In this document: piece by piece, positions 8,429 to 63,485 of the stretch
Position numbering within the stretch: the stretch's first letter is position 1
How the letters are laid out: each line of letters begins with the position of its first letter
NCBI GenBank assembly: GCA_035504415.1
Contig: DATJRY010000006.1
Coordinates: forward strand, 62,001 to 126,000
Source of the DNA: Candidatus Sulfotelmatobacter sp.
Lineage (GTDB): Bacteria; Vulcanimicrobiota; Vulcanimicrobiia; Vulcanimicrobiales; Vulcanimicrobiaceae
Length of the DNA: 64,000 nt
Reading direction: 5' to 3'
The notes under the pieces: model-generated
What the model saw: the letters and a program-made list of their open reading frames with translations, nothing else
Told to the model about the DNA's origin: nothing
Databases searched by the model: none
Made by a program: the position numbers and the translations under genes

Positions 8429-8472
8429 GACGATCGCGAGGCCGGCGAGTCCCGCCAGGACGTCGAGCGCGG

Positions 8473-8856: not shown

Positions 8857-8859
8857 GTC

Positions 8860-9698: not shown

Positions 9699-9701
9699 CC
9701 G

Positions 9702-11656: not shown

Positions 11657-11675
11657 CCGATCGCCGCGCCACGTG

Positions 11676-12203: not shown

Positions 12204-12367
12204 GGCAACCCTCCGCGGCGCCGCTTCGCACAGCTCGCTTGCTTCGCCTTCCGGCGGCGCCCCGCTTTGACGCATCGTCCGAAGGCCCCGCGGCTTTTTC
12301 ATACGAAGGCCGTCAAGTCAATGTCGCGCGCCGCAGCACACGTATCGCATCTCGAAGGACAGGGTCG

Positions 12368-13189
12368 GTGAGTACGCAGGCAGACGCCGCCATCGGCGTG
12401 CATCCGGGTTCAGACGCCGTCGCCGACTGGTCGCCGCACCTGCTGCGTCCCGGTCATCCGTTCGACGAGCTGTACGCGCGCTTGCGGCCGGAGATCGACG
12501 CGACCCTCGCCCAGTACGAGCAGAAGCGCTCGGCGCTGCTGCCGATGGCCCACTTGTTCCAGGAGCACGAGGGCTACGTCTCCGCCAACGCGGTGGCCGT
12601 CATCGCGCACACGCTCGAGGAGACGCTGGCCACCGTCGAGTCGACGCTCTCGTTCTACACGCTGTTCTTCCGGCGCCCGGTCGGCAAGTACATGGTGCAG
12701 GTCTGCCGCAACCTCTCGTGCCTGCTCAACGGCGCGCAAGAGATTCTCGACCATTGCCGCGCGAAGATCGGCGTGGCGCACTTGGAGACGACCGACGACG
12801 GCGTCTTCTCGTACGAGGAAGTCGAGTGTCTGGCGGCCTGCGACCGCGCGCCGTGCGCGCAGGTCAACCTCGAGTTCGTCTACGACCTGACGAAGGAGAA
12901 GGTCGACCAGCTGCTGGCCGACCTGCGCGCGGGAACGCACGCGATCCAGCCGCTGGCGCAGACCGTCAAGCCCGGGCGCACCTGGAAAGTCGCGCAGGAC
13001 ACCGGGCTCAAGGCGCCCGGCGCGCGCGGCGTGAGCGATCCCAACAACGCCGGCGGCATCGGCGACCCCAGCGGCATCACGATGTTCGACCTGATCGTCG
13101 GCAAGCCGCAGTACGAAGAGCGGTCGAAGGAACGCCTCGTCCACGAAACGACGCTGCGCCCCGAACTCGCCGAGGACGGACACCACTAG
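12368..13189 (+). CDS. nuoE: NADH-quinone oxidoreductase subunit E with C-terminal extension
   Basis: This thioredoxin-fold subunit carries the N1a [2Fe-2S] cluster. The ligands are visible as CX4C (Cys113, Cys118) and CX3C (Cys154, Cys158). GTG at 12368 is preceded by GAAGGA. The protein has 273 aa, and about 90 residues follow the usual end of NuoE (LLADLRAGTH), including a Gly/Asn-rich stretch, with no family match that I know. It lies 2 bp from nuoF. Its promoter must lie between it and the inverted gene, or inside that gene, because the operon is interrupted here. Confidence 0.94.
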   Translation: MSTQADAAIGVHPGSDAVADWSPHLLRPGHPFDELYARLRPEIDATLAQYEQKRSALLPMAHLFQEHEGYVSANAVAVIAHTLEETLATVESTLSFYTLFFRRPVGKYMVQVCRNLSCLLNGAQEILDHCRAKIGVAHLETTDDGVFSYEEVECLAACDRAPCAQVNLEFVYDLTKEKVDQLLADLRAGTHAIQPLAQTVKPGRTWKVAQDTGLKAPGARGVSDPNNAGGIGDPSGITMFDLIVGKPQYEERSKERLVHETTLRPELAEDGHH

Positions 13190-13191
13190 CC

Positions 13192-14462
<1,271 letters not shown>

Positions 14463-14463
<1 letters not shown>

Positions 14464-29566: not shown

Positions 29567-30055
29567 TTGCGTAGCTTCGCGGCGTCGTCGCTGGCACTGA
29601 TGCTCGCGCTCTCCCTTCCCGGGATCGCGCTTGCAAAGCCGGCCGTCACGCTCAAACTCACCGGCTCGGTCGTTACCACCACCACGGACGGTAAAACCCA
29701 GCTCACCCCCGTCGAAAAGACCGAGCTGCGGCCGGGCGATCGCGTCCGCTGGAGCATCATCGCGCGCAACGGAGGCGACTCCGGGGCATACAAACTTTTG
29801 ACGGTAGAAAAGATCCAACCCGGCACGGCGTACGTCGCGGGGTCGGCGAGTGCGTCCAAGGCGCACGCCGAGTTCTCGCTCGACGGCGGCAAGACGTGGT
29901 CGGCCGCGCCGACGGTCACCGTCAAGGACGCGCAAGGCAATGCGGTCGTGAAGAAGGCCGATCCGTCGACCTTCACGACGATCCGCTTCGTTCAGGACGG
30001 CGCGCTCGCCGCCCAGAGCACCGAAGCCTACGTCTATGAGGTCCGCGTCAAATGA
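29567..30055 (+). CDS. Small secreted DUF11-like protein (surface cluster A)
   Basis: The protein has 162 aa, with a TTG start and GAGGAG upstream. A signal peptide runs to about residue 23 (LSLPGIALAK). The mature chain is essentially one DUF11-type beta-sandwich repeat, LRPGDRVRWSIIARNGGDSG followed by PGTAYVAGSASA, as found in large bacterial surface proteins. It ends in a beta strand and VK (YEVRVK), like the next protein (FLVQVK). The stop overlaps the following start. It probably is a secreted subunit or assembly factor of the cluster; no enzyme motif is seen. Confidence 0.78.
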   Translation: MRSFAASSLALMLALSLPGIALAKPAVTLKLTGSVVTTTTDGKTQLTPVEKTELRPGDRVRWSIIARNGGDSGAYKLLTVEKIQPGTAYVAGSASASKAHAEFSLDGGKTWSAAPTVTVKDAQGNAVVKKADPSTFTTIRFVQDGALAAQSTEAYVYEVRVK

Positions 30056-32316: not shown

Positions 32317-32323
32317 TCTGATC

Positions 32324-34555: not shown

Positions 34556-37500
34556 ACCTGCGTCGTCGCTTCCGCCGCACCGCGATCGCGTTTCTCGCCA
34601 CCGGATTCGTCCTCTCGACGATTCAGGTCGACGATGGTGCGCGCATTCCGGCTGCGCTGGCGGACACGACGACGATCCCCGCGCTCGCCTCGCCGGTGCC
34701 GCCGGGGGCGCCCGCCGCGAGCCCCTCGCCCGATCCGTCCGACGCGCCTGACGATCCGACCAAGGGTCCGCGCGGCGGCGACCTCACCCATCTGACCTTC
34801 ACCGCGACCGACGGTCTGACCGCGGCGCTGAACGATCCGGTCGACGACGGCGTCGCCGGCAGCACCGCCGCCGCGATCGCGGTGCAGACCGTGCGCGGGG
34901 CCGGCGTCGAGCTGAAGGTCGGCGGCGAGGTCATCCCGTTCTCGCGCATCGGCAAACGCACCGTCGACACCAAGACCGGCCAGACGATCTACACCTACTA
35001 CGGCGTCGTGCTGCGCGCCGGCGCGAACGACGTGCAGCTCACGCCGCTGGGCGCGAACGGTCTGCGCGGGACGACGAGCACGCACCGCATCTACGGTCCC
35101 GGACGCCCGGTCGCGATCGCGATCGCGGCCAGCGGTCCGCTGCGCGCCGACGGGAGCAGCGTCGACGACCTGCGCATCCAAGCGCGTGACGCCTGGGGGC
35201 ACCATGCGGCGTCGGGCGAGCTCGTGCAGCTCACGCTCGTCTCCGGTGACGCGCGCCTCTCGCGGGTCGCGGTCGCGACCGACGATCCCGCCGCTCCCGC
35301 CGTGACGCCCACGCCGCAGCCATCGCCCTCGCCGGGCGCCGGCGCGGCGAACACGCGGCAGACGATCGGCGTCGCGCTCGGCCCCGACGGTTCGGCGATC
35401 GTGCACCTGCTGCCGGGGATGATCCCGGGCGACATCGTGCTGCAGGCGTCGAGCGGCGATGCGACCTGCGAGACGCGCGTCTTCCTCGCGCCCAATCCGC
35501 GCAAGCCGTTCGTCAACGGCCTGGTCACCGCCGGCGCCGGCGCGGTGCCGGGCATCCCGGACAGCCCCGACGACGTCGCCGACGGCACCAACTCCCGCCG
35601 CGGCCGCATCGCGGTCTTCGGCACCGGCTCGGTCGGCAGCGGCGTGTTGACCTTCGCCTACGACACCGCCAACGTGCTGCAGCGCACGACGGACTACAGT
35701 GGTGCGGCGAGCGTCGATCCGAGCGATCGTCCGTACGCGATCACCGGCGACACCAGCTCCCTGCGCGACGACGCGCTCTCGCGCGACCATCTCTTTTTCC
35801 GCTACGACAGCGGCCGCACCAGCGCCGAGTGGGGCGAGTTCCAGGCCTCGACGACGACCGACCCGACCAACCTGGGTGCGTTCAACCAGCTGGTCGACGG
35901 CGCCAAGCTCGACGTCGCCGGCGCGAACGCGCGTGCGACCGTGTTCGCGGCGCGCAACGACGTCGGCTACGACCGGCGCGTGTTCGCGCCGACGGGCCTC
36001 GCCAGCGGCGTGATGCTCTACCCGCAGATCGTCGTCGGCTCGGACGTCGCCTACTTGGCGGCGATCGATCGCCGCACCGGCGCCGTGCTGACGCAGACGC
36101 CGCTCACCAACGGCGTCGACTACACGATCGAGTACTCGACCGGGCAGCTGCGCTTCATCAACATCCCGCTCCCGTTCGACCAGAACTTCAACCCGCAAGA
36201 AGTCGTGCTGACGTACGAGTACGACGACCCCAGCGGTGCGGCCAAGACGGTCGGCGGCCACGCCGAAGTCGCGCTCGGCAAGGCCGTCAAGCTCGGCTTG
36301 GGCTACGTCAACGACACGACCGGTGCCGGCAACGTCACGCTGGCCTCGCAGTCGCTCAGCGGGACGATCCCGGGCGGCTCGTGGTCGATCGTGCACGCCA
36401 CCAGCGCCGGCTCGCTGCTGGCGACCTCCGCCGATCAGACGCAAGCCGGCGACGGCGGCGGCGCGCTGCATGCCGCGCTCACGCGCAGCGTCGGCAACGA
36501 CCACCTCTCGTTGCTGTTCGATCAGACCGGGGCGGGCTACGACGATCCGTTCGGCGGGCTCTCCACGCCCGGCCTCATCAACGAAGCGGTCAGCTACGGC
36601 CACAAGTTCGCCGGCGGCCAGGGCGAGATCGACCTCGACCTCGACCATCAGGCCAACGTCGGCATCAACGGGGCGGCCTCGACGACGCAGACCGAAGCGC
36701 AGCTGCGCGCGCGCCGCCAGCTCGGCAAGCGGGTCACGGTGACCGCCTCGGTCGACCGCCGCGTCTCGACCAGCTCCGCGGTCGGCACGCAGCTGGCGGT
36801 GCCGACCCCCGCGCCGAGCGGAACGCCCAGCCCGTACGACGTGACCAATCTGCCGGCGCAGGAGTCGACGCAGGTGCAGGCCGGCGTCGACTGGCGGGTG
36901 ACCAACGCGGCGACGCTGAGCGTCGACCGTCTGCAGACGATCGGCGGCGAGAACTCCGTGCAGCCGACGCAGACCGACGCGCAGCTGACCTACGACATCG
37001 GCAAGATCGGCCGCGTCTACGCGCGCGAGCGCTGGAGCGCCGCGCCGGTCGAAAGCTTCGCCGACGCGACGCAGGCGCTCACCTCCGGCACCGGCGGGAC
37101 GCGCTCGTTCGAAGTCGGCGTCGAGAACCGCTTGGGGCCGATGACGACCGTCGACGACTCGTGGGGTGTCGATCACACCGCCAACGGCAGCAGCATCTAC
37201 ACCGCGCTGGGTGTGCAGGAGAAGCTCAACCTGGGCCGCGTCAAGGGCAACGCCTTCATCCAGGACGGCACCGCCAGCGGCTACGACTCGTCGAGCGGCG
37301 GGTTCGACGTGTACGGCCTCTCGCTCAGCTACGCCGATCCCAGCAACCGCCTGCGCGTGAGCGGTTCCTCGCAGCTGCGCACCGGCAACGGCGCCGGCTT
37401 CTCCGATACGCTCGGCGCGGCCGGCGCGCTGACGCAGGACCTTTCCGTGTTCGCCGCGCTGACCGACGCGCGCTCGGACGGCAACGGCGAGTCCGACGAC

Positions 37501-37983
37501 AAGGTCGGCTTGGCCTGGCGCCCCGCGCAGAGCGACGACGGCGTGACGCTCTTCCAGTACGAGCGCCAGACCGGTACCGGCACCTACGACGGCAACGACG
37601 AAGGTGCGGTGCTCTCGCTCGAGCAGGTCGTCCGCCTGCGCCGGCGCACCGAGGTCACCGCGCGCTACGCCTACAAGCTCGACGGCGACCAGTTCTACGA
37701 AGCGCACAGCTCGCTGCTCGGCCTGCGCGTCGATCAGACGCTCGGCGATCGTTACGACGTCGGCGCCGAGATCCGCCGCGCGAACGTGCTCGGCATCGAC
37801 GGCGCGACCTCGAACGCGTTCGCGCTCGAGGCCGGCCTGCGGCTCGGCAACCAAACGCGCTTCGGCGTCGGCTACAACTTCAGCGCGACTGCCGACCCGT
37901 CGCTGGCGACGACGCCGCAGCACCGCGGCTTCTACACCACCGTGACGACCGTGGTCGACCGCATCTTGGGTTGGGGCCGCTAG
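34552..37983 (+). CDS. Predicted outer-membrane beta-barrel protein with Ig-like N-terminal domains (surface cluster A)
   Basis: The protein has 1143 aa. The signal region is followed by a Pro/Ser/Asp-rich stretch (about 45-70) and an Ig-like domain. A Big-1/invasin-like domain lies near residues 185-300 (DGSSVDDLRIQARDAWGHHA). From about 350 to the end the chain is amphipathic beta strands with alternating hydrophobic residues and Gly/Asp turns. It contains the block NGVDYTIEYSTGQLRF (about 519-534), a kind of motif seen in very large outer-membrane translocon-like proteins. I infer an outer-membrane pore or anchor for the two DUF11 proteins encoded just upstream. Four bases overlap the converging ridA. 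Confidence 0.78.
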   Translation: MNLRRRFRRTAIAFLATGFVLSTIQVDDGARIPAALADTTTIPALASPVPPGAPAASPSPDPSDAPDDPTKGPRGGDLTHLTFTATDGLTAALNDPVDDGVAGSTAAAIAVQTVRGAGVELKVGGEVIPFSRIGKRTVDTKTGQTIYTYYGVVLRAGANDVQLTPLGANGLRGTTSTHRIYGPGRPVAIAIAASGPLRADGSSVDDLRIQARDAWGHHAASGELVQLTLVSGDARLSRVAVATDDPAAPAVTPTPQPSPSPGAGAANTRQTIGVALGPDGSAIVHLLPGMIPGDIVLQASSGDATCETRVFLAPNPRKPFVNGLVTAGAGAVPGIPDSPDDVADGTNSRRGRIAVFGTGSVGSGVLTFAYDTANVLQRTTDYSGAASVDPSDRPYAITGDTSSLRDDALSRDHLFFRYDSGRTSAEWGEFQASTTTDPTNLGAFNQLVDGAKLDVAGANARATVFAARNDVGYDRRVFAPTGLASGVMLYPQIVVGSDVAYLAAIDRRTGAVLTQTPLTNGVDYTIEYSTGQLRFINIPLPFDQNFNPQEVVLTYEYDDPSGAAKTVGGHAEVALGKAVKLGLGYVNDTTGAGNVTLASQSLSGTIPGGSWSIVHATSAGSLLATSADQTQAGDGGGALHAALTRSVGNDHLSLLFDQTGAGYDDPFGGLSTPGLINEAVSYGHKFAGGQGEIDLDLDHQANVGINGAASTTQTEAQLRARRQLGKRVTVTASVDRRVSTSSAVGTQLAVPTPAPSGTPSPYDVTNLPAQESTQVQAGVDWRVTNAATLSVDRLQTIGGENSVQPTQTDAQLTYDIGKIGRVYARERWSAAPVESFADATQALTSGTGGTRSFEVGVENRLGPMTTVDDSWGVDHTANGSSIYTALGVQEKLNLGRVKGNAFIQDGTASGYDSSSGGFDVYGLSLSYADPSNRLRVSGSSQLRTGNGAGFSDTLGAAGALTQDLSVFAALTDARSDGNGESDDKVGLAWRPAQSDDGVTLFQYERQTGTGTYDGNDEGAVLSLEQVVRLRRRTEVTARYAYKLDGDQFYEAHSSLLGLRVDQTLGDRYDVGAEIRRANVLGIDGATSNAFALEAGLRLGNQTRFGVGYNFSATADPSLATTPQHRGFYTTVTTVVDRILGWGR

Positions 37984-51534: not shown

Positions 51535-52776
51535 CTAGACGACGATTGCGTCGGAGACGAGGGTGGCGAAGCTCTGCGCCATCGTTTCCACACCGGCGAT
51601 GATCCGCTGCTGGATTTGAACCTGGATTTGATCCTTGGTGAACGCCGTCGTCGCTTGCGCGACGTTGAGGTCTCGGATCGCACTCTCCGAGGCCTGATAG
51701 TTGACGGACGCCGTGTTGGCGTTGACCGCCGCTTCTTGCAACGAGACGTTCTGCGCACCGACGCGCGCCCGAATGTTGCCGAGATATTGAATGCCGTAGT
51801 CGATGCGATATTCCGCCGCGGTATTCATCGTGTCCGAACCCACCACGATGTTGCCGACGCCGAGGTTGTTCGCGGTGACCGCCGGGATGTCGACGGCGAT
51901 GGTCGATCCTTCGGCGGAGCCGTCGTTGACGTAGAGGTTGCTGCCGGGCGCTTTCGTTTGCGGCGCGAGGCTGACGACGGTCGCACTCTGACCCACGTCG
52001 GCGGCGCTCAGATTGTTGAAGGCAAACTGCAGGACTTCTTGTCCGTTTTCGTCCGTCTGCGTATATGGCCCGGGGATCGGTCCGAACGCGGGATCGATGA
52101 GCACGTTCGTACCTGCTTGAACCAAGAAGTTCGTGACTTGCGCCGGCCCGAATCCCGGCGACGCGCTCTCCAAGTCGACCGTCACAGAAAGCATATCCGT
52201 CGTTGGATCGTACGAGTTCACAGTGAACGTCTGCTCGATCTCTTCGCTCGTGTCGGTCGAGTTCGTGACGTTGGTCTGCGTCGGGTCGTAGAGCGTCTGT
52301 CCCGACGCCAGCGTCGGATTCGACGAGAACAGCAGCTGGTTGGGCAACGGGAAATCACTCGACGCACTCCCGTCGAGTAGATTACGGCCGTTATACGTCG
52401 TGTTCTCGGAGATCTTGTTGATCTCGAGCGTGAGCTGGGTCAGCTCAACCTGAATGTCCGCTTGATCCTGCGTGCTCTCCAGATCGCTGTTGGCCTGCAC
52501 CACCAAAGACCGCATGCGCTGGAGAATGTCAGAGATCGTCGCCATCGCGCCGTCGGCGATGGTGAGCGCGTTGTTGGCGTCCTGCACTTCCTGAACGCCT
52601 TGATCGAGACCCATCACCTTGGTCGCAAGCGAAGTCGCGATCGCGAGTCCGCTCGGATCGTCTGCGGCCGTATTGATACGCAGGCCGGAAGAGAGACGCT
52701 GTACTTGCGTCGACAGGTCCGACTGCGTTTGGGCGTTCGCGTTGAGTGCGTAGTTCGCGAACCCCAAGACGTCCAT
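51535..52776 (-). CDS. Flagellin
   Basis: The protein has 413 aa from the ATG at 52776. The N-terminal D0/D1 domain is clear (QVQRLSSGLRINTAADDPSG, then TISDILQRMRSLVVQANSD, NKISENTTYNGRNLLDGS). The C-terminal D1/D0 domain contains LGNIRARVGAQNVSLQEAA and ends with IIAGVETMAQSFATLVSDA. The variable middle is short (about 170 residues). The start MDVLGFANYALNAN replaces the usual M-x-I-N-T-N opening. It is the only flagellar gene in the window and carries its own sigma-28-like promoter. It is divergent from surface cluster B. Confidence 0.93.
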   Translation of the reverse strand: MDVLGFANYALNANAQTQSDLSTQVQRLSSGLRINTAADDPSGLAIATSLATKVMGLDQGVQEVQDANNALTIADGAMATISDILQRMRSLVVQANSDLESTQDQADIQVELTQLTLEINKISENTTYNGRNLLDGSASSDFPLPNQLLFSSNPTLASGQTLYDPTQTNVTNSTDTSEEIEQTFTVNSYDPTTDMLSVTVDLESASPGFGPAQVTNFLVQAGTNVLIDPAFGPIPGPYTQTDENGQEVLQFAFNNLSAADVGQSATVVSLAPQTKAPGSNLYVNDGSAEGSTIAVDIPAVTANNLGVGNIVVGSDTMNTAAEYRIDYGIQYLGNIRARVGAQNVSLQEAAVNANTASVNYQASESAIRDLNVAQATTAFTKDQIQVQIQQRIIAGVETMAQSFATLVSDAIVV

Positions 52777-52822
52777 GGTGATGGTGGCTCTTCCCTCCGT
52801 GGAAGCTGCCCGTCCGTGGGCT

Positions 52823-52838
52823 GGGGTACAGGTACCCC
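52823..52838. repeat. 16-bp palindrome at the flagellin transcription start
   Basis: GGGGTAC-AG-GTACCCC is a near-perfect palindrome just downstream of the flagellin -10 element. It would be a hairpin at the 5' end of the flagellin mRNA, or a DNA operator for a dimeric protein between flagellin and surface cluster B. Confidence 0.5.
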
Positions 52839-52847
52839 TTCCCACCC

Positions 52848-52895: not shown

Positions 52896-55800
52896 GTGGT
52901 GGCCGGGCGGCCGGGAGCCGATGAATCGGGTGTGCATCTCCGTCTGCGGCGCCTGCTGGCCGGGACGGGTGTCGCATGCCTGGTTGCCTCGGCCGTCTGC
53001 TTCGCGTCGGAGGGGGCGCTGCTCGCGGCGCCGTTCCTGGCCGTCAACCTGCACCTCCCCGCGAGCCTGCTGGCCGTGGTCGAGCCCTCGCCCGGCCCGA
53101 GCCCCACGCCCGCTCCCTCGCCCTCACCGTCCCCTTCGGTCGCGCCGCATCCGGTGCGTCACTCGTTCCTGGGCGAGGGGCCGATCGTGTTCTCGGGCTC
53201 CGGCACCTACCAGCTGGGGGTCAACAAGCAGACGCGCGACGGGTTGGACCTGGGCTACGACAGCTACTCGACGGCCCTCACCCTCACGGCGGACCGGCGC
53301 ACCGCGCAGACGTCGCTCGAGATCAGCGACTCGCTGGGCGTCGGGGGCGGCGCCTTCAACTCCGGCTCGTTCATCGTCGCGTACCGCACCCCGACCTACA
53401 CCCTGAGCTACGGCCAGCTGGCGGGTCCGGCCGACACCCAGCTCGAGATCGGCGGCTTCGCGCGGGGCATCTCGCTGACGCTGCCGCTGCGCAACGGCGA
53501 CCTGACCTACATGAGCGCGATCGCGACCGACTCCGAGGAGGAGACCTACCGGATCTACGGCCTGCGCCGCGACTGGAACGCGCTGGGCGGCTACTTCGCT
53601 CTCTCGGGTTACTATGGAACGGGACAGCAAGGCGGACGGGAATCGATCGGCGACTTCTCGTTCCAAAAATACGGCCCCGTCCTCTCGACCCAAACCGAGC
53701 TGGCCATCGGCCAGACCGACGACGTCCTCGACCAGCCGAACGGCATTCGGGTGGCGGGCGGCTTTCAGGCCGACATACAAGGGAAGGGCGCGAGCGAAAC
53801 CTTCGGCATCCGGTACGACCCAGCCGGCTTCAACACGCTGACCGGGGTGCTCGATGGCGGGATGTCGGTCGACCTGGCGCTGCGGCGACAGGGCGGCTTC
53901 GGCAACTTCAGCCTCGACTACACCCACCTCGACGACCGCAACGTCGACACCCTTTCACACGACGACGACGTGACGCTGACCGGCGGCAAATCGTGGGGCC
54001 ACTTCGGGCTCGAGTACGTCGGCAGCTTTCAGGACGAGCGCGAGCCGGGCTCGATCACCCTCAATCGCAGCGCCGGCCTGACCGCAACCGAGCAGATCAA
54101 GAAGATCTCGATCTACGCCACCGTCCAAAAGGCGTCGACCAGCGCCACCGACGGCAACGCAGCGACCAGCCAGTACGCGCTCGGGATCAGCCGCAACATC
54201 CTCGGCGGCGCGGCCTCTTACCAGTTCACCCGCAGCCTGGAGAACGGCGGCGGCCTGAGCAACGGCACCTCGGTCGACCAGACGGTCGACTACGCCCGGC
54301 CGTTCGGCAAGAAGGCCGACATCCAGGTCAGCGAAGGCTTCGAGGACGAGCGCAACAACCTGATCCCAGCCCGCATCGTCGAGACGGCGGTCAGCGTCGT
54401 GCGGCGACTCTCCTCGGTCGTCAGCATTCAGGCCAGCGCCGACGTCTTCCACCAGACCGGGCCGGGCGGCGGTTCGGGGACCGGCTTCAGCCTCTCGCTG
54501 GTCGGCCCATTCGGCTTCAACCAGCCGCAGTCGGTACAGGGGAAGGCCAACCCGCATCTGCCGGCGGTCATCCGCGGGACGGTCACGATGTCGAGCTCGG
54601 CGAGCCCGTTCTCGTACAACGTCGCCGCGCCGCGCGGGCTCAACAACGCCATGGTCGTACTTGACGACGGCATTACCGAGCGAACCGACTCCGCCGGCAA
54701 CTTCGAGTTCCGTTTCGTCCCGCAAGGGACGCACGTGGTGCGGATCGACCCGGCGACCATATCGCCGGGGTTGGTGCTCGACCGCGAGTTCCAGACCGTC
54801 AACGTCCTGGGCGGCCAGACCACGACCCTGGCCTTCAACGTGGGCAACTTCGGCGCGGTCTCCGGACAGGTCTACGCGCGGGGGCCGAACGGCACCAAGA
54901 TCCCGATCCCCAAGGTCGGGATCGCGGTCGACGGCGTCCAGGCGACGGTCACCACGCCCCAAGGGTTCTATCAGGTCGGCCGGCTGAATCCGGGCGCGCA
55001 CACGATCGAGGTCGTGACCGCGACCGTCCCCTCGACGATCGCCTTCGTCGACGATACCAAGAAGACGATCACGGTCGCCGCCGGGTCGCAGGTACCGCTC
55101 GACTTCGCCGGATCGGCGCTCGGGTCGATCGCCGGCTTCGTCTATACGGCGGGCGAGGGTGGGTTCGGCAATCAAGTCGGGGCGAACAACGTGTACGTCG
55201 TGGCGGAGCCCGGCGAGCACGCCGGCATCACCAACGACGACGGGTCGTTCCTGCTCGACAACCTCCCGCCGGGCAGCTACACGCTGAGCATCGACCAGGA
55301 TACGATCCCAGACGGCCTCGGGGTGGTCTCGGGCCCGGACGGCCCGATCGATCTGGCCGGCGGCGCGAACGTCTCCGGCGTCGTGTTCCGCTTGGGCGGG
55401 GTGGCGAAGAACGTCGTCTTCACCTTCAACCAAGGCAAGGAGCAGGCGATCCAGGTCGAGACGGAACCGGCCGTGGTCCCGCCCGGCGCCCTGGTGCACG
55501 TCGTCGCCCACACCAACGCCAAGGACGTCACGCTCACGGTCCAGAGCGACGTCTTCGGTAACTTCCCGTTGCACCTGGACAAGAAGTCCGGCGCGTGGGT
55601 CGGCGACGTGATCGCGCCGACGCTCACCCGCGGCGACTACTCGTTGACGGTCGCGGCGCAGCGGAAGGACGTCCGGGAGAACACCGTGCTGGTCCAGGTG
55701 GACCCGGGCCTGTCGCTCTTCACGATCCGCGTCTTCCCGGCCAAACCGCTGCCGGGCCACCAGATCAAGGTCTCGATCAAGACCTACGCCCCGGTCGCGG

Positions 55801-55961
55801 CCGGCGACGTCATCGAGTTCCAGGACGGCTTCAAGCTGCCGCTCCCCAAACCGAACGGGCGGCTGTTCGTCTTCAGCATGCCGCTCTGGGAGAAGGGGCT
55901 GCCCTACTCGGCCACTATCCGAACCAAGCGAGGGCAAAATTACCCGATAAGTCTCCGTTAA
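52896..55961 (+). CDS. Usher-like outer-membrane beta-barrel protein with Ig-like C-terminal domains (surface cluster B)
   Basis: The frame from the GTG at 52896 gives 1021 aa; an in-frame GTG at 52932 sits closer to the signal segment (LLAGTGVACLVASAV) and may be the true start. A Pro/Ser-rich linker lies near residues 68-90. From about 95 to 555 the chain is amphipathic beta strands with short turns, as in a large outer-membrane barrel. Then come three or more small beta domains of CarboxypepD_reg/SdrD-B type, starting near 575 (MVVLDDGITERTDSAGNFEF), 650 (AVSGQVYARGPNG) and 743 (SIAGFVYTAG), and an Ig-like end. Barrel followed by beta-sandwich domains recalls fimbrial ushers; with a chaperone-like gene nearby I infer an export pore. 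Confidence 0.75.
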   Translation: MVAGRPGADESGVHLRLRRLLAGTGVACLVASAVCFASEGALLAAPFLAVNLHLPASLLAVVEPSPGPSPTPAPSPSPSPSVAPHPVRHSFLGEGPIVFSGSGTYQLGVNKQTRDGLDLGYDSYSTALTLTADRRTAQTSLEISDSLGVGGGAFNSGSFIVAYRTPTYTLSYGQLAGPADTQLEIGGFARGISLTLPLRNGDLTYMSAIATDSEEETYRIYGLRRDWNALGGYFALSGYYGTGQQGGRESIGDFSFQKYGPVLSTQTELAIGQTDDVLDQPNGIRVAGGFQADIQGKGASETFGIRYDPAGFNTLTGVLDGGMSVDLALRRQGGFGNFSLDYTHLDDRNVDTLSHDDDVTLTGGKSWGHFGLEYVGSFQDEREPGSITLNRSAGLTATEQIKKISIYATVQKASTSATDGNAATSQYALGISRNILGGAASYQFTRSLENGGGLSNGTSVDQTVDYARPFGKKADIQVSEGFEDERNNLIPARIVETAVSVVRRLSSVVSIQASADVFHQTGPGGGSGTGFSLSLVGPFGFNQPQSVQGKANPHLPAVIRGTVTMSSSASPFSYNVAAPRGLNNAMVVLDDGITERTDSAGNFEFRFVPQGTHVVRIDPATISPGLVLDREFQTVNVLGGQTTTLAFNVGNFGAVSGQVYARGPNGTKIPIPKVGIAVDGVQATVTTPQGFYQVGRLNPGAHTIEVVTATVPSTIAFVDDTKKTITVAAGSQVPLDFAGSALGSIAGFVYTAGEGGFGNQVGANNVYVVAEPGEHAGITNDDGSFLLDNLPPGSYTLSIDQDTIPDGLGVVSGPDGPIDLAGGANVSGVVFRLGGVAKNVVFTFNQGKEQAIQVETEPAVVPPGALVHVVAHTNAKDVTLTVQSDVFGNFPLHLDKKSGAWVGDVIAPTLTRGDYSLTVAAQRKDVRENTVLVQVDPGLSLFTIRVFPAKPLPGHQIKVSIKTYAPVAAGDVIEFQDGFKLPLPKPNGRLFVFSMPLWEKGLPYSATIRTKRGQNYPISLR

Positions 55962-55974
55962 AAAGGCCCTCTAC

Positions 55975-56064
55975 CGCACCGTGGGGCTAACGACCGGCCC
56001 CCTGACGGTCGAAGACCGAGGTGAGGGGCGGAGATCGCCCCCCAATCTAGCGTCCCTCCACCTC
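55975..56064 (+). promoter_or_regulatory. Structured leader before the first subunit gene of surface cluster B
   Basis: The 117-nt gap between the barrel gene and the first subunit has nested complementary arms. GAGGTG (56018-56023) pairs with CACCTC (56059-56064). Inside it GGGGCG (56025-56030) pairs with CGCCCC (56036-56041). GGGGC/GGCCCC and GACCG/CGGTC pairs lie further 5'. The ribosome binding site AAAGGA (56066-56071) follows directly. I recognise no known riboswitch class. Confidence 0.45.
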
Positions 56065-56078
56065 GAAAGGATTCGAAC

Positions 56079-56843
56079 GTGAAAAGAGCACTTGCTGCTC
56101 TGGTCATGCTGGGGATCGCGACCGTCACGGCGGCTCCTAGCATGGCAGCTACCACGGTCTACGGTTCCGCGCAGATCAAGTACACCGTCAACGCGACCGC
56201 CTCGGTCGCCATCGCGACGAACTACACGACGGCTGCCCCTTGGGGTCAGGCCGCCGGAGCTTCCACGATCTACTCGCAACCGGCGGGCAACTGCACGGCC
56301 GGTGCGGCCGAGACCGGCGCGACCCTGACCTTCGGGGCGATCACCCCGCCCACCAGCGGCTACACGAGCTGCTACTACAAGAACGCGCTGCTCCTCGGCG
56401 TGAGCTCGAACGACACCAGCGGGTTCAAGGTGTACGAGTACACCGACTCCGTCGCGACCGGTACGGCGATCTGCTCGTACCCGCTCAACGCGACGATGGC
56501 CGCCTCCCCGACCGTCTCGGGCGCGACCGCGGCCGTGACGTACGTGGCGTCTTGCCCCACCGTCAACTCGGTTGCCGGCGTGGCCCTGGTCGGTGAGGGT
56601 GGGTCGACGGCCGGCACCGGCTTCGGCGGCGCCAGCACGCCGGGCACCGGCACCTGGGATCAGACCGCGACCCCGACCGCCACCACGGCGGGCGCCGTCG
56701 GCTCGGTGTTCTTCTCAGCGGCAACGGCCAACGGCTCGTGGCTCTACGGCGGCCAGGACATCTCGTTCAACGTCAGCTCGGCGGCCGCGTCGTCGACCAC
56801 GACGCAGACGAACGTGGTCACGCTCGCCGTCGTTCCGAACTGA
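56079..56843 (+). CDS. Pilin-like secreted subunit (surface cluster B)
   Basis: The protein has 254 aa, GTG start, AAAGGA upstream and a signal peptide ending PSMAATT. The mature N-terminus, VYGSAQIKYTVNATASVAI, resembles that of the 62044 product (VGSAQLDYKVLPYVHASV). Ser/Thr/Ala/Gly-rich beta sequence follows, with two cysteine pairs. The C-terminus DISFNVSS then TQTNVVTLAVVPN matches the ends of two other cluster proteins. The layout recalls the spore-coat-U/CU-pilin subunits, which end in an alternating hydrophobic strand. No such family match is certain. Confidence 0.72.
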   Translation: MKRALAALVMLGIATVTAAPSMAATTVYGSAQIKYTVNATASVAIATNYTTAAPWGQAAGASTIYSQPAGNCTAGAAETGATLTFGAITPPTSGYTSCYYKNALLLGVSSNDTSGFKVYEYTDSVATGTAICSYPLNATMAASPTVSGATAAVTYVASCPTVNSVAGVALVGEGGSTAGTGFGGASTPGTGTWDQTATPTATTAGAVGSVFFSAATANGSWLYGGQDISFNVSSAAASSTTTQTNVVTLAVVPN

Positions 56844-56894
56844 CGTCCGGAGCAAGAGACTGAAGCCGTCGCGGGTGGCGACCGAGAATCTAGA

Positions 56895-57686
56895 GTGATG
56901 CGCATCCCCTCGCGTTTGCTCCAAGTTATCGGTGCGACCGTCGTCCTCGGACTGGCGGCCGCAGCCCCCTCGGCGGCGGACCTCTCGGTTGACGTCTCTC
57001 CGGCCAAGTACGAGCTCCAGACGGAGCCCGGCAAGCAGGAGACGTTCCCGATCACGGTCCGCAACACGAGTCAGGCGCAGATTCATATCGTCGCTTCGCT
57101 CGTGGACTACACCGTCGGGCGCGATGGGCAGTACGCCTTCGCCGCCCCCGGCAAAGGGCAGTTCTCGCTCTCCAAGGACATCACCATCAATCCGCGCGAG
57201 TTCGACGTCGATCCGGGTTCGTTCACGCAAGTGCGATTCTCGGTCGACGTGCCGGCTGGCGCGAACGGTGAGTACAGCAATCTGGTCTTCTTCACGACGC
57301 GGCCCACTCGCCACGGCGGCGGGCTGTCGATCGCGGAGCGAATCGCCTCGAAGATCTACGTGATCATTCCGGATACGACGCACATCGGCGGGGAGATCGA
57401 CGACGTGCGCATGCAGTCCGCCGCAGACGGCGCGCACTACCTGGTCAACTTCCACAACACCGGAAATGCTCACGTGTATCTGAGTGGCCGCGTCGAGATC
57501 AAACAAGGAAGCGCGATCGTCGACCGACTCACGTTGCCGTCCGGCTTGCTCGTCGAGCGCGGCGGAACGCGCGTCGTCGACATCCTCGGGAAGAAGCTCC
57601 CGCCTGGCTCGTACTCCGTCGTCGCCCTGGTGGACTACGGCGGGCCGAACCTGGTCGCTGGACAGACGAACGTCACCGTGCGCTAA
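56895..57686 (+). CDS. PapD/DUF916-like periplasmic chaperone candidate (surface cluster B)
   Basis: The protein has 263 aa with a signal peptide (to about residue 30, AAAPSAADLSV). Two immunoglobulin-like domains are visible. The first begins LSVDVSPAKYELQTEPGKQE with VRNTSQAQIHIVASLVDYTV, the arrangement of PapD-type and DUF916 N-domains. It ends with IYVIIPDTT, comparable to the G1-strand/linker region. The second starts near 175 (HYLVNFHNTGNAHVYLSGRV). An SNLVFFTTRP segment lies between. It is placed between two secreted-subunit genes, which is what a dedicated subunit chaperone would show. A DUF916-type surface role is the alternative. Confidence 0.7.
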   Translation: MMRIPSRLLQVIGATVVLGLAAAAPSAADLSVDVSPAKYELQTEPGKQETFPITVRNTSQAQIHIVASLVDYTVGRDGQYAFAAPGKGQFSLSKDITINPREFDVDPGSFTQVRFSVDVPAGANGEYSNLVFFTTRPTRHGGGLSIAERIASKIYVIIPDTTHIGGEIDDVRMQSAADGAHYLVNFHNTGNAHVYLSGRVEIKQGSAIVDRLTLPSGLLVERGGTRVVDILGKKLPPGSYSVVALVDYGGPNLVAGQTNVTVR

Positions 57687-57722
57687 GCGCACGGGACACA
57701 CGCGGAACGGATTCCGGAGCAT

Positions 57723-60700
57723 ATGAAAGCATTGTCGCGGACGTTGGCGCTCGTCGCCTTCGTCGCCGTCACCGTCCTCGGTGCCGGTGGGATCGTCGCC
57801 CTCGCACAGTCCACGCAGTCGACCCTGCGCGGCGGCGGTGGGATGCGTGCCATAGCGACGCCGGCCGCGGCGCCTTCGGGCGGCCCGACCGCGCCGCCCT
57901 TGCCGCTCGGCGACATGCGCCGCAAGGGCCACACGAGCGTCTCCGGACAGACCGTTTTCGATCCGCTCGGCTGGCTCCAGCGTCTTCCGCAATTCCAGCG
58001 CAAGCAGATGCTGCACCGGCTGGGACCGCGCTACGCGGGCCAGCAGCCGGCCGGAATGCCCAAGCTCGGCCCGATGTTGCGCGCCAAGCAGGGGATCCGG
58101 CACAGCGCGTCCGCGACGGGCGCTTCGATCGTGCTCACCGGTACCGCCACCACGCAGGCGTACCTGGACGACCAGACCGTCGCGTACGGTGCGGACGTCT
58201 ATTGGGAGTGCGAGAACCTCAAGGCGAACACGACCTACGAGTACATCGTGTTCTCGCCCGACGGTTTCGCGTACACCGTCGGCATCGACGAGTACTGGGC
58301 CGGCAACGCGAACTCGAACACGTTCACGACCGACGCGACCGGCCGCTGCGAGCACACCGCCGGCGGCGAGATGTATCCGTATTGGGCCGCAATCACGCTC
58401 ACGACGCCGCTGGCCGCCACCAACGCGACCATCCTCAACGGCCCCGACACCAATGCGGCTGCTTCGGCCTATTCGGGGATCTGGGCGATCGCGGTCAAGA
58501 ACACTGCGACCGGAAACTTCGAGGCCGTCGCCTACACGGTCGTCATCGGCACGCTGAACTTCTCGACCTACTCGAATGCCGGGATGACGACGGTGGCGAA
58601 CGACTTCGCCTCCGGCTCGACGGCGTACGTTCAAGCGACGGGACTCAACCCGGCGCATTTCTACGACTTCGGCTTCATCAATACGTCCGGCAACGGCTTG
58701 CCGTGCGTGTACACGATCCCGTCCGGCACGCAGAACTACAACAACGCGGTGTGCTTCACGAACGGCGCGGCCGGCGTCTTGCCGACGAATCAGTCGTTCA
58801 GCGGGCAGTGGACGACGCCGGCGAGCGGCACGAACGCCGCCGGCACGTACTCGGTCGAGCTCTACGACGCGACGACGAACGACATGATCTCGCAGCAGCA
58901 AGTGTCGGTCAATCCGTCGACGCTGACCTGGAACACGCTGGTTCCCTACAGCTCGACCAGCGGCACCGGGACCAACCTCAACAACATCTTCGCCACCGAC
59001 GGGCTGTTCAACGTCCAAGCCGGCATCGGTAACGTCACCACCGATCAGTCGGTCACCGGCCTGAACATCTCCGGCAGCGGCACGACCAGCGGTCACGTGT
59101 ACTCGCTCACGCTGAGTAACGGCAACGGCGTCGTGCTCGCCTCGACCACGAGCGACACCGGCACGACGACGTTCCCGGAGAGCACGCCGGCCGGCCCGCA
59201 GTTCTTCAATCCGCCGCTGAGCTTCACGGCGACCGGCACGACGTTCACGGAGAACAACGTCGCCTTCCCGCTGAACACCGCGACGCTGACCTCGTTCGGT
59301 GCTTCGCAGACGCCGTTCGCGCCCAACGTCTACACCGCGCAGCTCTACGATTCGACGGCCGGCACCGTGGTGGGCTCCAAGTCGTTCCAGATCGTCTCGT
59401 ACTCCGGTTCCTTCGAGTGGACGAGCCCGGCCGGCTCGTTCGTCAACGCGAACGCCGGGGGGCTGGCGACGAACGTCACCGCCACCCTCACCAACACGGG
59501 CGGCACGCTGTTCGGGACCTGGAACGCCGACGGCATCAAGCAGGTGACGATCGAGCGCGACAGCACCGCGAAGGTCACGATGGGTCTGCAAACCGGGGTG
59601 ACGACCGCCACTGACTCGCAGGGCCAGACCTGGAACCTCACCACCTATACCGACGCCATCACCGGCGCGCCGGGCGTCAAAGCCGTCCCCGCCGTCGCGG
59701 GCGAGTCGCTCGCGCCCGGCTCGACGCTGCCGTTCCCGCTCACCGTGGGCGTCGCGACCGGCAACTGTACCGCCGCTTGCATCCTGCGCACGACGATCAC
59801 GCCGCTGCACGGCATCGCCGAGAGCATCACCAGCGCGACGATGGCGAACACCGCGACCAACGGCCTCGAGGTCCTGGGCTTCAGCGTCGCCGCGAACCAG
59901 CCGTCGTACAGCTGGACGACCATCGGCGACTTCTCCGGTACGCAGCTCGGCACTCCGCGGTACACGCAAGCGATGTACGTGTCCGGTACCGACAACGCGC
60001 TCTCGACCGGGACGTATCCCATCACCGTCACCGTCAACAACACCGGCGGTTCGGCGGCGATCAACGCGCTCGAGTTCGTCATGCCGGCGACCTACTATCC
60101 GAGCACGAGCACGCCGAAGTTGACCTCCGTGGTCAACAACGGCAACTCGCAAGTCGCCAGCTGGACCGTGTACACCGAAGACGGCGGCAACGGCGCCACC
60201 GCGAACGCCAACCTCGGGTCGAACGCGTTCGCCTTCGATTCGGGCAGCAAGTCGATCGCGGTCGGCCAGACGGCGGTCTTCCAGTTCACGCTGCCGATCT
60301 CGTTGGCGTCGTTCCCCTTCCAGGTCGTGCCGGTGACGGCCAACTGGACGGGCACCTCGTTCACCGTCGGCCCGACCAGCACGCTGACCAACGCGATCGC
60401 GGGGACGACCAACGTCCTCTCCGACGAGATCGGCGTCTTCTCGCTGAACCCGGCCTTCATGACCGCGTCGATCACGCCGGCGGTCGTCGCCGCCTCGGCC
60501 GGCTCCTCGTTCACCTTCGCGTTCACCAACACGTCGACCGGTCTGGACCCGAACCCGGACTACGTCAGCCAGCTGCTGATCGAAGTGCCGAGCATGGGCG
60601 GCGTCTATCCGTCCTCGGTGTCGGTCACCTCGCCGAACCAGACCGGGGTGACCTGGCATGCCAACGCGACCTCGACGACCGGCACGTACCTGATCGACCT

Positions 60701-62030
60701 GTGCACGTCGAACACGATCCCGAGCGTGGCGAACCAAACCTACACCGCCTGCACCGCGACGCAGGACGCGAACTCGCTGCCGCCGGGCGACACGCTGGAC
60801 GTGACCTTCACCTACGCAACGGCACCCGGCGTCGCCACGGCTTCCGTGCCGTGGATCGCCGTCGGCGCGAACGGCGGCGCGGTCGTCGGCTCGGTGACGA
60901 CGCCCATCAACGAAGAGCCGACGTTGGCCGTTGCCAACACGACGGCTCAGACGAGCATCACCTACGCCGGTGGCTACACCGCGACGCCGGTCTATCCGCC
61001 GGTCGCGCCGATCACCGCCGTGCCGGCCAACAGCCAGCCGACGATCGGCGCCTGGGCGAACTACAACGACGGTAACGGATACGTCTTCCAGCTCTACAAC
61101 AACGGCTCGACCCCGATCACGGACGTCAGCATCCAGATCCCCTCGTCGAACACCTCGGGGCAGATCTTCGACACGCAAGACTGGTCGGTGATCGCGTCGT
61201 CGATCTACACCTACGGCGCGGGCGCGGCGGGCGCGCAGTGCAGCGCCAACGGTTACAAGACGCTGACCGAGCCGGTGCGCGGCTCTCCGGGGACGCCGGG
61301 CATCATCACCCTGCACGGCTGCACGATCGCGGTCGGCCAGTCGCTCGACGTGTTCTTCTACGCGCTCTCGCCGTACGACATCGGCTCGACGTTCCTGTGG
61401 CCGGCATCGGTCGCCGACAACGGAACGCCGGCCAATCCGAACACCAACGCGAACACGCTGGCGGCCTACTCGCTGTCCAACACCGTGCGCGTCATCGATG
61501 AGGCCGAGCTGTCGATCCAGGTGCCGACGGGAGTGTCGCCGACCTTCACCTACAACCCCGCGCTGTTCGGACCCAGCGACGCGCCAACCGTCAGTTGCCC
61601 GAACTGCACGTTCACCAGCGGCACGGTTCCGATCATCAACCTGAACTCGATCACCGGAACCTTCGACGCGACCGACACGCTGGCGGCCTCGGTCTACTCC
61701 GACTCGACCGCCGGCTGGACGCTCTACGTCGCGGCCGACCAGAATCCGCAGATCTCCTCGGGCGGCGGCCCCGCGCTCAACACCTGGATCGACAAGACGG
61801 CTTCGTCGCATCCGGGCACCGGTACGTTCACGCCGAACGCGGCAGCCGATACTTCCCCGGGTGTGGTGGTTCCCACGACTGGTACGCAGCAGCTCTCGAC
61901 CTTCACGGGCGCCGCGCTGCACACGCCGGTCGACAACATCATGAGCTTCCAGCTCAACGTCGGGGCGACGGTGTTGTCGGCGACGCAGACCAATACGATC
62001 ACCCTCACCTACACCCTCATCGCCAACTGA
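57723..62030 (+). CDS. Giant secreted surface protein with pilin-like C-terminus (surface cluster B)
   Basis: The protein has 1435 aa with a signal peptide (about 1-29). A basic Gly/Pro-rich region of about 100 residues follows, including LPQFQRKQMLHRLGPRYAGQ. The rest is a long series of beta-sandwich modules rich in Thr, Ser, Asn, Gly and Ala, with several cysteine pairs (for example VSCPNCTF near 1275). DUF11-like pieces are visible (ITVTVNNTGGSAAINALEF). The last 150 residues resemble the small pilin-like subunits and end with MSFQLNV then TQTNTITLTYTLIAN. A tip adhesin or major fibre protein carrying a subunit-type domain at its end is the simplest reading. No catalytic motif. Confidence 0.75.
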   Translation: MKALSRTLALVAFVAVTVLGAGGIVALAQSTQSTLRGGGGMRAIATPAAAPSGGPTAPPLPLGDMRRKGHTSVSGQTVFDPLGWLQRLPQFQRKQMLHRLGPRYAGQQPAGMPKLGPMLRAKQGIRHSASATGASIVLTGTATTQAYLDDQTVAYGADVYWECENLKANTTYEYIVFSPDGFAYTVGIDEYWAGNANSNTFTTDATGRCEHTAGGEMYPYWAAITLTTPLAATNATILNGPDTNAAASAYSGIWAIAVKNTATGNFEAVAYTVVIGTLNFSTYSNAGMTTVANDFASGSTAYVQATGLNPAHFYDFGFINTSGNGLPCVYTIPSGTQNYNNAVCFTNGAAGVLPTNQSFSGQWTTPASGTNAAGTYSVELYDATTNDMISQQQVSVNPSTLTWNTLVPYSSTSGTGTNLNNIFATDGLFNVQAGIGNVTTDQSVTGLNISGSGTTSGHVYSLTLSNGNGVVLASTTSDTGTTTFPESTPAGPQFFNPPLSFTATGTTFTENNVAFPLNTATLTSFGASQTPFAPNVYTAQLYDSTAGTVVGSKSFQIVSYSGSFEWTSPAGSFVNANAGGLATNVTATLTNTGGTLFGTWNADGIKQVTIERDSTAKVTMGLQTGVTTATDSQGQTWNLTTYTDAITGAPGVKAVPAVAGESLAPGSTLPFPLTVGVATGNCTAACILRTTITPLHGIAESITSATMANTATNGLEVLGFSVAANQPSYSWTTIGDFSGTQLGTPRYTQAMYVSGTDNALSTGTYPITVTVNNTGGSAAINALEFVMPATYYPSTSTPKLTSVVNNGNSQVASWTVYTEDGGNGATANANLGSNAFAFDSGSKSIAVGQTAVFQFTLPISLASFPFQVVPVTANWTGTSFTVGPTSTLTNAIAGTTNVLSDEIGVFSLNPAFMTASITPAVVAASAGSSFTFAFTNTSTGLDPNPDYVSQLLIEVPSMGGVYPSSVSVTSPNQTGVTWHANATSTTGTYLIDLCTSNTIPSVANQTYTACTATQDANSLPPGDTLDVTFTYATAPGVATASVPWIAVGANGGAVVGSVTTPINEEPTLAVANTTAQTSITYAGGYTATPVYPPVAPITAVPANSQPTIGAWANYNDGNGYVFQLYNNGSTPITDVSIQIPSSNTSGQIFDTQDWSVIASSIYTYGAGAAGAQCSANGYKTLTEPVRGSPGTPGIITLHGCTIAVGQSLDVFFYALSPYDIGSTFLWPASVADNGTPANPNTNANTLAAYSLSNTVRVIDEAELSIQVPTGVSPTFTYNPALFGPSDAPTVSCPNCTFTSGTVPIINLNSITGTFDATDTLAASVYSDSTAGWTLYVAADQNPQISSGGGPALNTWIDKTASSHPGTGTFTPNAAADTSPGVVVPTTGTQQLSTFTGAALHTPVDNIMSFQLNVGATVLSATQTNTITLTYTLIAN

Positions 62031-62043
62031 CGGAGAGAATACG

Positions 62044-62700
62044 TTGATTCGTCGATTGGCCGCCGCGGCCGCCGCCCTCGCCCTCGCCGGAACACCACTC
62101 CTCGCTCGCGCCGCAACCGTCGGCTCCGCGCAGCTGGACTACAAGGTGTTGCCGTACGTCCACGCCTCGGTCACCCCGAACTACGCGTCCGGCTTCGGCG
62201 TCGCCGGTATCTCGACCAACGGGTTGGGCAGCGGAACGACGCCGGCAAACGGCTCGACCGCGGTCCTCGACGGCGGCCAAGTCGACTTCGGCAACGTCGT
62301 GGTCGGCTACAACTACCTCTACAAGTACGCAGCGCAAGTCAACGTGAACACCAACGATCCGTCCGGCTTCATCGTCTATGCGGAAGGCGCCACGGACCTG
62401 TTTACGCCGTCCGCGTCGACTTCGCCGCTGTTCCAAACGCTGTTCTGGCTGCCGTCGTCGAGCGGCAACACGGCGTTCAGCTCCGCCACGTCGTTCAACA
62501 AGACGGCCGGTACGCCGATCGGCGTCAACGGCGTGAACGGAATCACGTACGGCGGGGCGCCCTCGAGCGCATCGGTGGTCTGGACGAGCGGCGCGTCAGG
62601 GTCGCTCTCGCAAGGCTTCGACTACGAGCTGCGGCCCAACGGGTCGATGGCGATCAGTCAGTTCAACGTCTACATCGTCTACACGGTGATCGGAAATTGA
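62044..62700 (+). CDS. Pilin-like secreted subunit (surface cluster B)
   Basis: The protein has 218 aa, TTG start and GGAGAG about 5 nt upstream. The signal peptide ends LLARAATV. The N-terminal GSAQLDYKVLPYVHASVTPN and C-terminal FDYELRPNGSM followed by NVYIVYTVIGN parallel the 56079 product and the end of the giant protein. There is no Cys in the mature chain, unlike the 56079 subunit. It is coupled to the next gene through a TTGA overlap. Confidence 0.72.
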   Translation: MIRRLAAAAAALALAGTPLLARAATVGSAQLDYKVLPYVHASVTPNYASGFGVAGISTNGLGSGTTPANGSTAVLDGGQVDFGNVVVGYNYLYKYAAQVNVNTNDPSGFIVYAEGATDLFTPSASTSPLFQTLFWLPSSSGNTAFSSATSFNKTAGTPIGVNGVNGITYGGAPSSASVVWTSGASGSLSQGFDYELRPNGSMAISQFNVYIVYTVIGN

Positions 62701-63485
62701 GACACACACGCAACCTCGCGCTGCTCGCGCTCGTCGTGCTCGCCGCGCTGGCCGCGTTCTCTCAGGCCGACGCCGTGCAGGCGACCAAGACCTCCAAGAT
62801 CGTCGAGTTCGAATTCGTCATAACGCCGAGCCCGGCGCCGAGCGTGGGCGCGTTGCCCGCGCCGCAGGTAAAGGCGGCGGCGGCGATCGCCGCCGCGCCT
62901 CGCACGGACGCCTCGACGCGGACGCTGCTCGTCGATCCGTTCGCCGGACCGCGCCAAGTCGCATGGGGTGGCCCGAGCTGGGACGTCGCTCCGGGGATCC
63001 AGATCGCACAGGTGCAAGCGCAGCCCTCGCCGGTGCCGGTGCAGTTCGTCACCAAAGCGGATCCGAACGCGCAATACTTGCAGGTAACGCCGGGGTCGGC
63101 TGGCACGATCCTGACCGCGGTCTACGGAACCAACTACTACGCCTGTGCGCTTACGATCAAGACCTACTACACGACGGCCTACGGCTTGACGGACTGGGGG
63201 TACGGCACCTCGACCTCGAGCGCCATCGGCTATCCGATCGAGAACTATCCGACGACGAGCTATCTCGCGTGGGCCGCCGAGGCGAGTCCGGAACCGGTTC
63301 CCGAACCGACTCCCGCGACGTTCACGGGCTTCTACAACGAGGGCTCGCCGGGCCAGACGGTCTGGTCGAAGGCGGCGAACGTCACCTACACGGGCTGTAT
63401 CGATCTGCGGCTGACGGTGCCGACCGCGGTGGCGCCCGGCACGTACTCGGCGGTCATCGAGTACAACCTCCAGGTTACGATCTAG
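62697..63485 (+). CDS. Secreted protein, probable accessory subunit (surface cluster B)
   Basis: The protein has 262 aa, TTG start overlapping the preceding stop. The signal peptide ends AFSQADAVQA. A Pro/Ala-rich stretch (about 40-115) separates the N-terminal strand (SKIVEFEFVITPSPAPS) from a C-terminal beta domain with one Cys pair (YYACALTIKTYY, and TGCIDLRLTV). It ends in APGTYSAVIEYNLQVTI, a terminal strand of the type found in pilin and spore-coat-U subunits. It is the last gene of the cluster and converges on the 63490 gene with 4 bp between. Confidence 0.7.
   Translation: MRHTRNLALLALVVLAALAAFSQADAVQATKTSKIVEFEFVITPSPAPSVGALPAPQVKAAAAIAAAPRTDASTRTLLVDPFAGPRQVAWGGPSWDVAPGIQIAQVQAQPSPVPVQFVTKADPNAQYLQVTPGSAGTILTAVYGTNYYACALTIKTYYTTAYGLTDWGYGTSTSSAIGYPIENYPTTSYLAWAAEASPEPVPEPTPATFTGFYNEGSPGQTVWSKAANVTYTGCIDLRLTVPTAVAPGTYSAVIEYNLQVTI

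Follow-up and report, generated by a model that had tools for sequence, protein, structure and literature searches.

The window, a 64,000-nucleotide stretch whose contig (C6) belongs to a 4.2-Mb assembly, carries between positions 52896 and 63485 six consecutive rightward genes that probably constitute a diverged chaperone-usher (CU) type pathway for the assembly and export of a surface fibre or adhesin complex. All six open reading frames (ORFs) lie on the forward strand, and inspection of their products reveals a hydrophobic, signal-like N-terminal stretch in 6/6 proteins, bearing out the earlier note's description of a run of genes for exported proteins. The first gene (52896-55961; 1021 amino acids; exact start codon position uncertain) encodes an usher-like outer-membrane protein, 52896, composed of a signal, a proline-rich linker, a predicted beta-barrel and five immunoglobulin (Ig)/CnaB-like tail domains, as judged from the ORF, an AlphaFold2 (AF2) model of 53157-55958, Foldseek and usher profiles. 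It is followed by small subunit A (56079-56843; 254 amino acids), a periplasmic two-domain PapD/WxLIP-like chaperone, 56895 (56895-57686; 263 amino acids), and a large adhesin-like protein (57723-62030; 1435 amino acids), delineated by its ORF and by the clusters of relatives. Small subunits B (62044-62700; 218 amino acids) and C (62697-63485; 262 amino acids) complete the set; A and B were recognized by their mutual homology, and the more diverged C by a C-terminal strand common to the subunits.

Close matches in named genomes come from Candidatus Eremiobacterota/WPS-2 metagenome bins, within the phylum Eremiobacterota/Vulcanimicrobiota. A cultured member of this phylum has an outer membrane covered with lipopolysaccharide (PMC9758169), and a periplasm and outer-membrane barrels are therefore expected in the host. 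Since the relatives retain the gene set with similar protein lengths, at identities of about 25-79%, the six ORFs can be regarded as real genes. Pfam scans of the six proteins returned CarboxypepD_reg in 52896 (2.8e-14) and WxLIP_PGBD (equivalent to DUF916) in 56895 (2.4e-4, under the gathering score), and no match for the remaining four (56079, 57723, 62044 and 62697). Usher (PF00577) and PapD_N (PF00345) had zero matches genome-wide, in agreement with the earlier note's reading of 52896 as a protein without recognizable usher sequence.

The same six genes occur in the same order across the genus and a sister family (f2), and in other genera of the order the large gene is shifted to the last position (barrel, A, chaperone, B, C, large), with C sometimes undetected. 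The large protein was found in every cluster uncut by a contig or stretch end, but was undetected in locus L050. When 149 genomes of the phylum were surveyed, 41 matched the barrel profile and 36 gave strong hits to the chaperone profile, all of them within the 41 (Fisher p 1.6e-29); the five barrel-only genomes are for the most part incomplete bins. Barrel and chaperone genes share a contig in 34/36 genomes, at a gap of 809-1112 bp in 33/36. The co-occurrence in relatives on which the earlier note had made its proposal depend was thus observed in 36/36 chaperone-bearing genomes, with adjacency maintained across the order, and the chaperone, barrel and subunit genes are co-localized and co-inherited, as in a chaperone-usher pathway. 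The genome to which the window belongs also has another copy of these genes (L036, G000:C11:306000-325000, positions 6278-16246), which has diverged and been rearranged into the order subunit, chaperone, subunit, chaperone, large protein, barrel; the 1033-residue ORF with which it starts is mostly upstream frame and is subunit-like only over its last ~240 residues.

Fold and affinities of the two-domain chaperone

Protein 56895 was folded within a read-through fusion to 56079 (TGA read as Gly), and its part of the model reached a predicted local distance difference test (pLDDT) score of about 83. Both Foldseek and VIA identify this model as a two-domain PapD/WxLIP chaperone fold, in line with the PapD/DUF916-like assignment of the earlier note. 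In Foldseek against the PDB, the top hit was Enterococcus faecium WxLIP 9i25 (5.5e-11), followed by CfaA, CsuC and many CU chaperones. VIA ranked WxLIP 9i25 highest (Z 15.2, 217 residues aligned, root-mean-square deviation [rmsd] 5.8), ahead of CfaA (Z 14.3, 194 aligned, rmsd 4.5), CsuC (Z 13.0, 181 aligned, rmsd 4.1) and PapD (Z 11.7, 182 aligned, rmsd 5.9). Generic Ig proteins reach 11-13 on a single domain, and the fold evidence was consequently weighed by two-domain coverage together with sequence.

Sequence profiles were compared with hhalign using column-shuffled profiles as nulls, and mature sequences with trimmed signal peptides were used here because the signal peptides inflated untrimmed scores. 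The mature 56895-family profile matches WxLIP over both domains (68.6, null maximum 19.1; second domain alone 24.5, null maximum 21.5) and archaic CU chaperones (58.1, null maximum 21.0). In contrast, its score against classical chaperones (FimC/YadV/YehC) lies at null level (15.3). Archaic and classical CU chaperones match each other strongly (73.8), whereas WxLIP and archaic CU chaperones show no match (19.1 against a null of 19.7). On these profiles, 56895 appears to bridge WxLIP and archaic CU chaperones, two groups mutually unmatched at the depth of the small alignments employed (3-13 sequences each), a placement that calls for deeper alignments.

The sequence of 56895 ends in ...LVAGQTNVTVR, without the hydrophobic C-terminal helix of WxLIP. 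Two basic positions, K/R38 in strand A and K/R153 in strand G1, are occupied by K or R in 22/22 cluster chaperones and are lost in divergent chaperone relatives. In the window protein, K153 falls within a candidate donor (G1) segment, LSIAERIASKI (57324-57356), singled out by the conserved basic residue and the model, and its putative partner K38 is encoded at 57006-57008. The G1 segment presents an alternating-hydrophobic pattern; residues 143-148 are disordered in the model and the strand begins at R149, so that the predicted disorder ahead of K153 agrees, as expected, with a free donor loop. The anchor of classical chaperones consists of two basic residues (PMC4654587), and K38 and K153 may be placed like that pair. 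Archaic chaperones possess an invariant arginine (Arg89 of CsuC; PMC4654587), and in the alignment this position apparently holds Ala/Ser instead in the window-family chaperones.

The barrel protein, its tail and the exported subunits

The AF2 model of 52896 spans 934 residues (53157-55958; pLDDT 69.6). According to DSSP, residues 10-449 of this model form a putative beta-barrel region (53184-54503; pLDDT about 70) with about 24 long strands, counted from the DSSP list, followed by five beta-sandwich tail domains. The first two, D1-D2 (54546-55121), are CnaB/CarboxypepD_reg-like and collinear in hhalign with the first two C-terminal domains (CTD1-CTD2) of ushers; the remainder (55122-55958; Pfam, DSSP), comprising D3 (CarboxypepD_reg) and the Ig-like D4-D5, falls outside the usher plan. 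Foldseek placed FimD first for this model (2.9e-13), followed mostly by further FimD and PapC structures. D1-D2 matched residues 601-725 (CTD1-CTD2) of an archaic usher with moderate strength (37.7, null maximum 22.2), and the whole barrel family scored 71.1 against a profile of 11 ushers (null maximum 21.5). In a control with the usher profile, 7/7 family barrels scored 25-32, compared to 11-23 for 20 further CarboxypepD_reg proteins encoded in the window's genome. It took archaic ushers and a larger usher profile to obtain this signal: the barrel protein did not match three classical ushers alone, and an usher profile stripped of the plug gave no better barrel match.

The earlier note had predicted a barrel of 20-plus strands with a plug and C-terminal domains; the modelled strands and tail domains agree with it, but a plug does not appear. 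It had also taken a CarboxypepD_reg/SdrD-B type of tail to set 52896 apart from ushers. The CarboxypepD_reg domain is indeed present, and D1 is close to the CnaB domains of SdrD and UafA (rmsd 1.6-2.1 in VIA), but EcpC, an alternative usher, likewise matches CarboxypepD_reg at its C-terminal end (1.2e-4).

The three small subunits and the large protein listed in the earlier note are all encoded as exported proteins, but they are not unrelated to one another. By hhalign, A is homologous to B (1.2e-15), and the last 183 residues of the 1435-residue protein form a subunit-like C-terminal domain (61479-62027, ending in TITLTYTLIAN) that matches B (2.7e-5) and A (4e-6), all of these being single-comparison E-values. 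Subunit C matches A over its last ~27 residues only (28.1, null maximum 15.9), and the same residues score 30.8 against WxL domains (null maximum 16.2), resembling the second WxL motif; both scores come from the untrimmed hhalign run inflated by signal peptides. A conserved terminal strand ends all subunits and the large protein (e.g. TITLTYTLIAN, VYIVYTVIGN). Subunit B conserves this C-terminal VYIVYTVIGN and an N-terminal GSAQLDYKV, and the C-terminal strand of A is conserved too. Mature A and B begin with an alternating segment (TGTVTVKWN in relatives, GSAQLDYKV in the window B) that, by eye only, resembles the CsuA/B donor strand TGQVDVKLN. A PDB profile search with the subunits and the subunit-like end of the large protein produced nothing credible. 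The motifs LDFG, GWxL and LTYTL look like those of WxL and spore-coat-U proteins, a lead only, with whole-domain profiles below significance.

Related gene sets and neighbouring genes

In 11 genomes of the phylum, divergent relatives of the chaperone are encoded next to another kind of barrel-like protein, about 700 residues long. This barrel-like family (A18) occurs in 9 genomes, 9/9 of them among those 11 (p 7e-13), and its gene adjoins the divergent chaperone gene in 8. Its tail domains match the window barrel family (69.5, null maximum 30.5) and ushers (33.6, null maximum 22.0), and the N-terminal domain of one member is weakly copper-amine-oxidase-N-like (Cu_amine_oxidN1). Representatives of this second class, accompanied by divergent chaperones and small subunits, lie at L047:13261-15420, L048:11057-13195 and L049:7256-9346 (reverse strand); L047 also encodes a 1056-residue Big_2 repeat adhesin. 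The divergent chaperones score 173 against the window chaperone and 62.6 against WxLIP, with a weak match to archaic CU chaperones (26.5, null maximum 16.9). In Polaribacter (L064:9881-17613), downstream of the gene for a chaperone relative lie two genes for small exported proteins and one for a 1779-residue protein with long charged repeats and weak SdrD_B/CarboxypepD_reg (CnaB) matches at its C-terminal end, possibly a Bacteroidota version of the cluster. A plasmid record labelled Klebsiella pneumoniae, possibly mislabelled or contaminated, contains at CP069367.1:102082-102480 a WxLIP-like stretch that lacks annotation and shares 55% identity with the protein of E. faecium.

Within the window, the cluster is flanked by a divergently oriented, flagellin-like gene (51535-52845, reverse strand; Flagellin_N 2.8e-35); the phylum's cultured member has no flagellin gene (PMC9758169). 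A further rightward surface cluster (30052-37983) encodes a large barrel-like protein (ORF 34093-37983, true start probably internal) and two proteins of ~750 residues whose repeats look DUF11-like by eye. The 4.2-Mb genome as a whole holds 35 CarboxypepD_reg matches, mostly in ORFs of about 700-1200 residues.

A probable diverged chaperone-usher-type pathway and its alternatives

Taken together, these data are best explained by a diverged chaperone-usher-type pathway. The earlier note had proposed such a system outside the known families, either distant from or independent of them; the data favour a distant branch, because the chaperone matches archaic CU chaperones and D1-D2 match usher CTD1-CTD2. 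Its closest counterparts are the archaic and alternative systems (Csu, CupE, ECP), with which it shares a two-domain periplasmic chaperone (by fold and profile), a barrel protein in which the tail starts with two domains that align with CTD1-CTD2, and several small subunits accompanied by a bigger adhesin-like protein that terminates in a subunit-like domain; the tail of EcpC is CarboxypepD_reg-like as well. It differs from them in its three additional tail domains, a far larger adhesin-like protein, a chaperone nearer to WxLIP and the lack of detectable Usher, PapD_N or SCPU Pfam matches. With classical systems (Fim, Pap) it shares the chaperone fold and the lead of FimD/PapC in the Foldseek search of the barrel model, but 56895 lacks a classical-chaperone profile match and the barrel lacks PapC_N and plug. 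The set was not classed as a plain CU member because it lacks Usher and PapD_N sequences, an usher N-terminal domain and a plug.

Several observations weigh against this interpretation. The predicted template modelling (pTM) score of the 52896 model is low (0.38), and the usher N-terminal domain (PapC_N) is absent, with no Pfam match and with strands starting right after the proline-rich linker. In place of a plug-sized insert, the model shows only a low-confidence segment of ~40 residues (64-102), below the size of the FimD plug. The barrel part alone barely matches ushers (28.5 at best, null maximum 20.2). In VIA, the model scores highest against MtrB (18.5), followed by PapC (17.8), FimD (16.4) and porins (near 16), with LptD tying too; since MtrB and porins tie with the ushers, the barrel fold by itself does not single out ushers. 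Furthermore, the subunits gave no Pfam, WxL or spore-coat-U match and weak profile comparisons, and the subunit A-chaperone fusion model has a pTM of 0.41, a low-confidence subunit part (pLDDT about 55-65) and no confident interface, which is why strand donation rests on homology.

The VIA ranking could suggest that 52896 is a porin or an MtrB-type conduit within a cluster devoted to a non-adhesion role, such as uptake or electron transfer. We regard this as the least probable of the alternatives, given that the six genes include no cytochrome or transport gene and that the homologies of chaperone and subunits and the usher-like tail point elsewhere. Scarcely more probable is that 52896 is an adhesin or inverse-autotransporter-like protein that brings its attached Ig domains to the surface by itself, with the remaining genes encoding separate secreted adhesins and a general chaperone. 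The succession of a barrel and CnaB/Ig domains, and the tail matches to the Gram-positive surface proteins SdrD and UafA, would fit such a protein, but type Ve autotransporters have a 12-strand N-terminal barrel with a surface-exposed Ig passenger, as opposed to the about 24 strands modelled here, the tail domains find their aligned counterparts in the periplasmic domains of ushers, and the barrel is strictly paired with a chaperone in two separate classes.

Somewhat less improbable, although still unlikely, is a diderm cousin of the WxL/WxLIP (DUF916-DUF3324) complex, in which 56895 would stay bound as a structural partner in a static complex on the barrel, with no secreted polymer. WxLIP provides the nearest solved structure and the best profile match for 56895, and the C-terminal strand of subunit C recalls a WxL motif. 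Moreover, WxLIP clusters likewise pair one small and one large partner protein, and an AlphaFold2 prediction has the WxL sandwich completed by a hairpin from WxLIP (PMC10599100). However, 56895 appears soluble, lacking the C-terminal membrane helix of WxLIP, no partner protein has a WxL domain match, and an outer-membrane barrel with an usher-like tail is the constant neighbour in this diderm host, while it is absent from the Gram-positive WxL clusters examined.

Under the favoured chaperone-usher-type reading, Sec would carry subunits A, B and C and the 1435-residue protein into the periplasm, where soluble 56895 would cap each of them by donating its G1 strand, its inter-domain cleft holding their conserved C-terminal strand. 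The resulting complexes may then dock on the tail of the barrel protein, a site proposed because 52896 is without the N-terminal domain on which docking usually takes place. Subunits would traverse the barrel, with the N-terminal extension of each next subunit replacing the chaperone strand to form a chain, and the 1435-residue protein, whose subunit-like C-terminal domain recalls tip adhesins, might sit at the tip of the fibre.

Chaperone-usher pili are known chiefly from proteobacteria, and we found no published report of them in Eremiobacterota. An usher without docking domain and plug beside a recognizable chaperone would reveal which usher parts are dispensable. Because 56895 has profile matches to WxLIP as well as to archaic CU chaperones, which are mutually unmatched here, it offers a concrete way of testing whether Gram-positive and Gram-negative surface systems have donor-strand complementation in common. 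More speculatively, and in our view rather doubtfully, WxL/WxLIP complexes and chaperone-usher pili might descend from a single donor-strand chaperone-subunit module, with 56895 as a living intermediate and Eremiobacterota, together with Bacteroidota relatives, as a third major branch with an usher devoid of N-terminal domain or plug. Enteric bacteria build adhesive hairs with a chaperone-usher machine, and the gene set of the window looks like a far-diverged form of that machine in a soil bacterium of a little-studied phylum.

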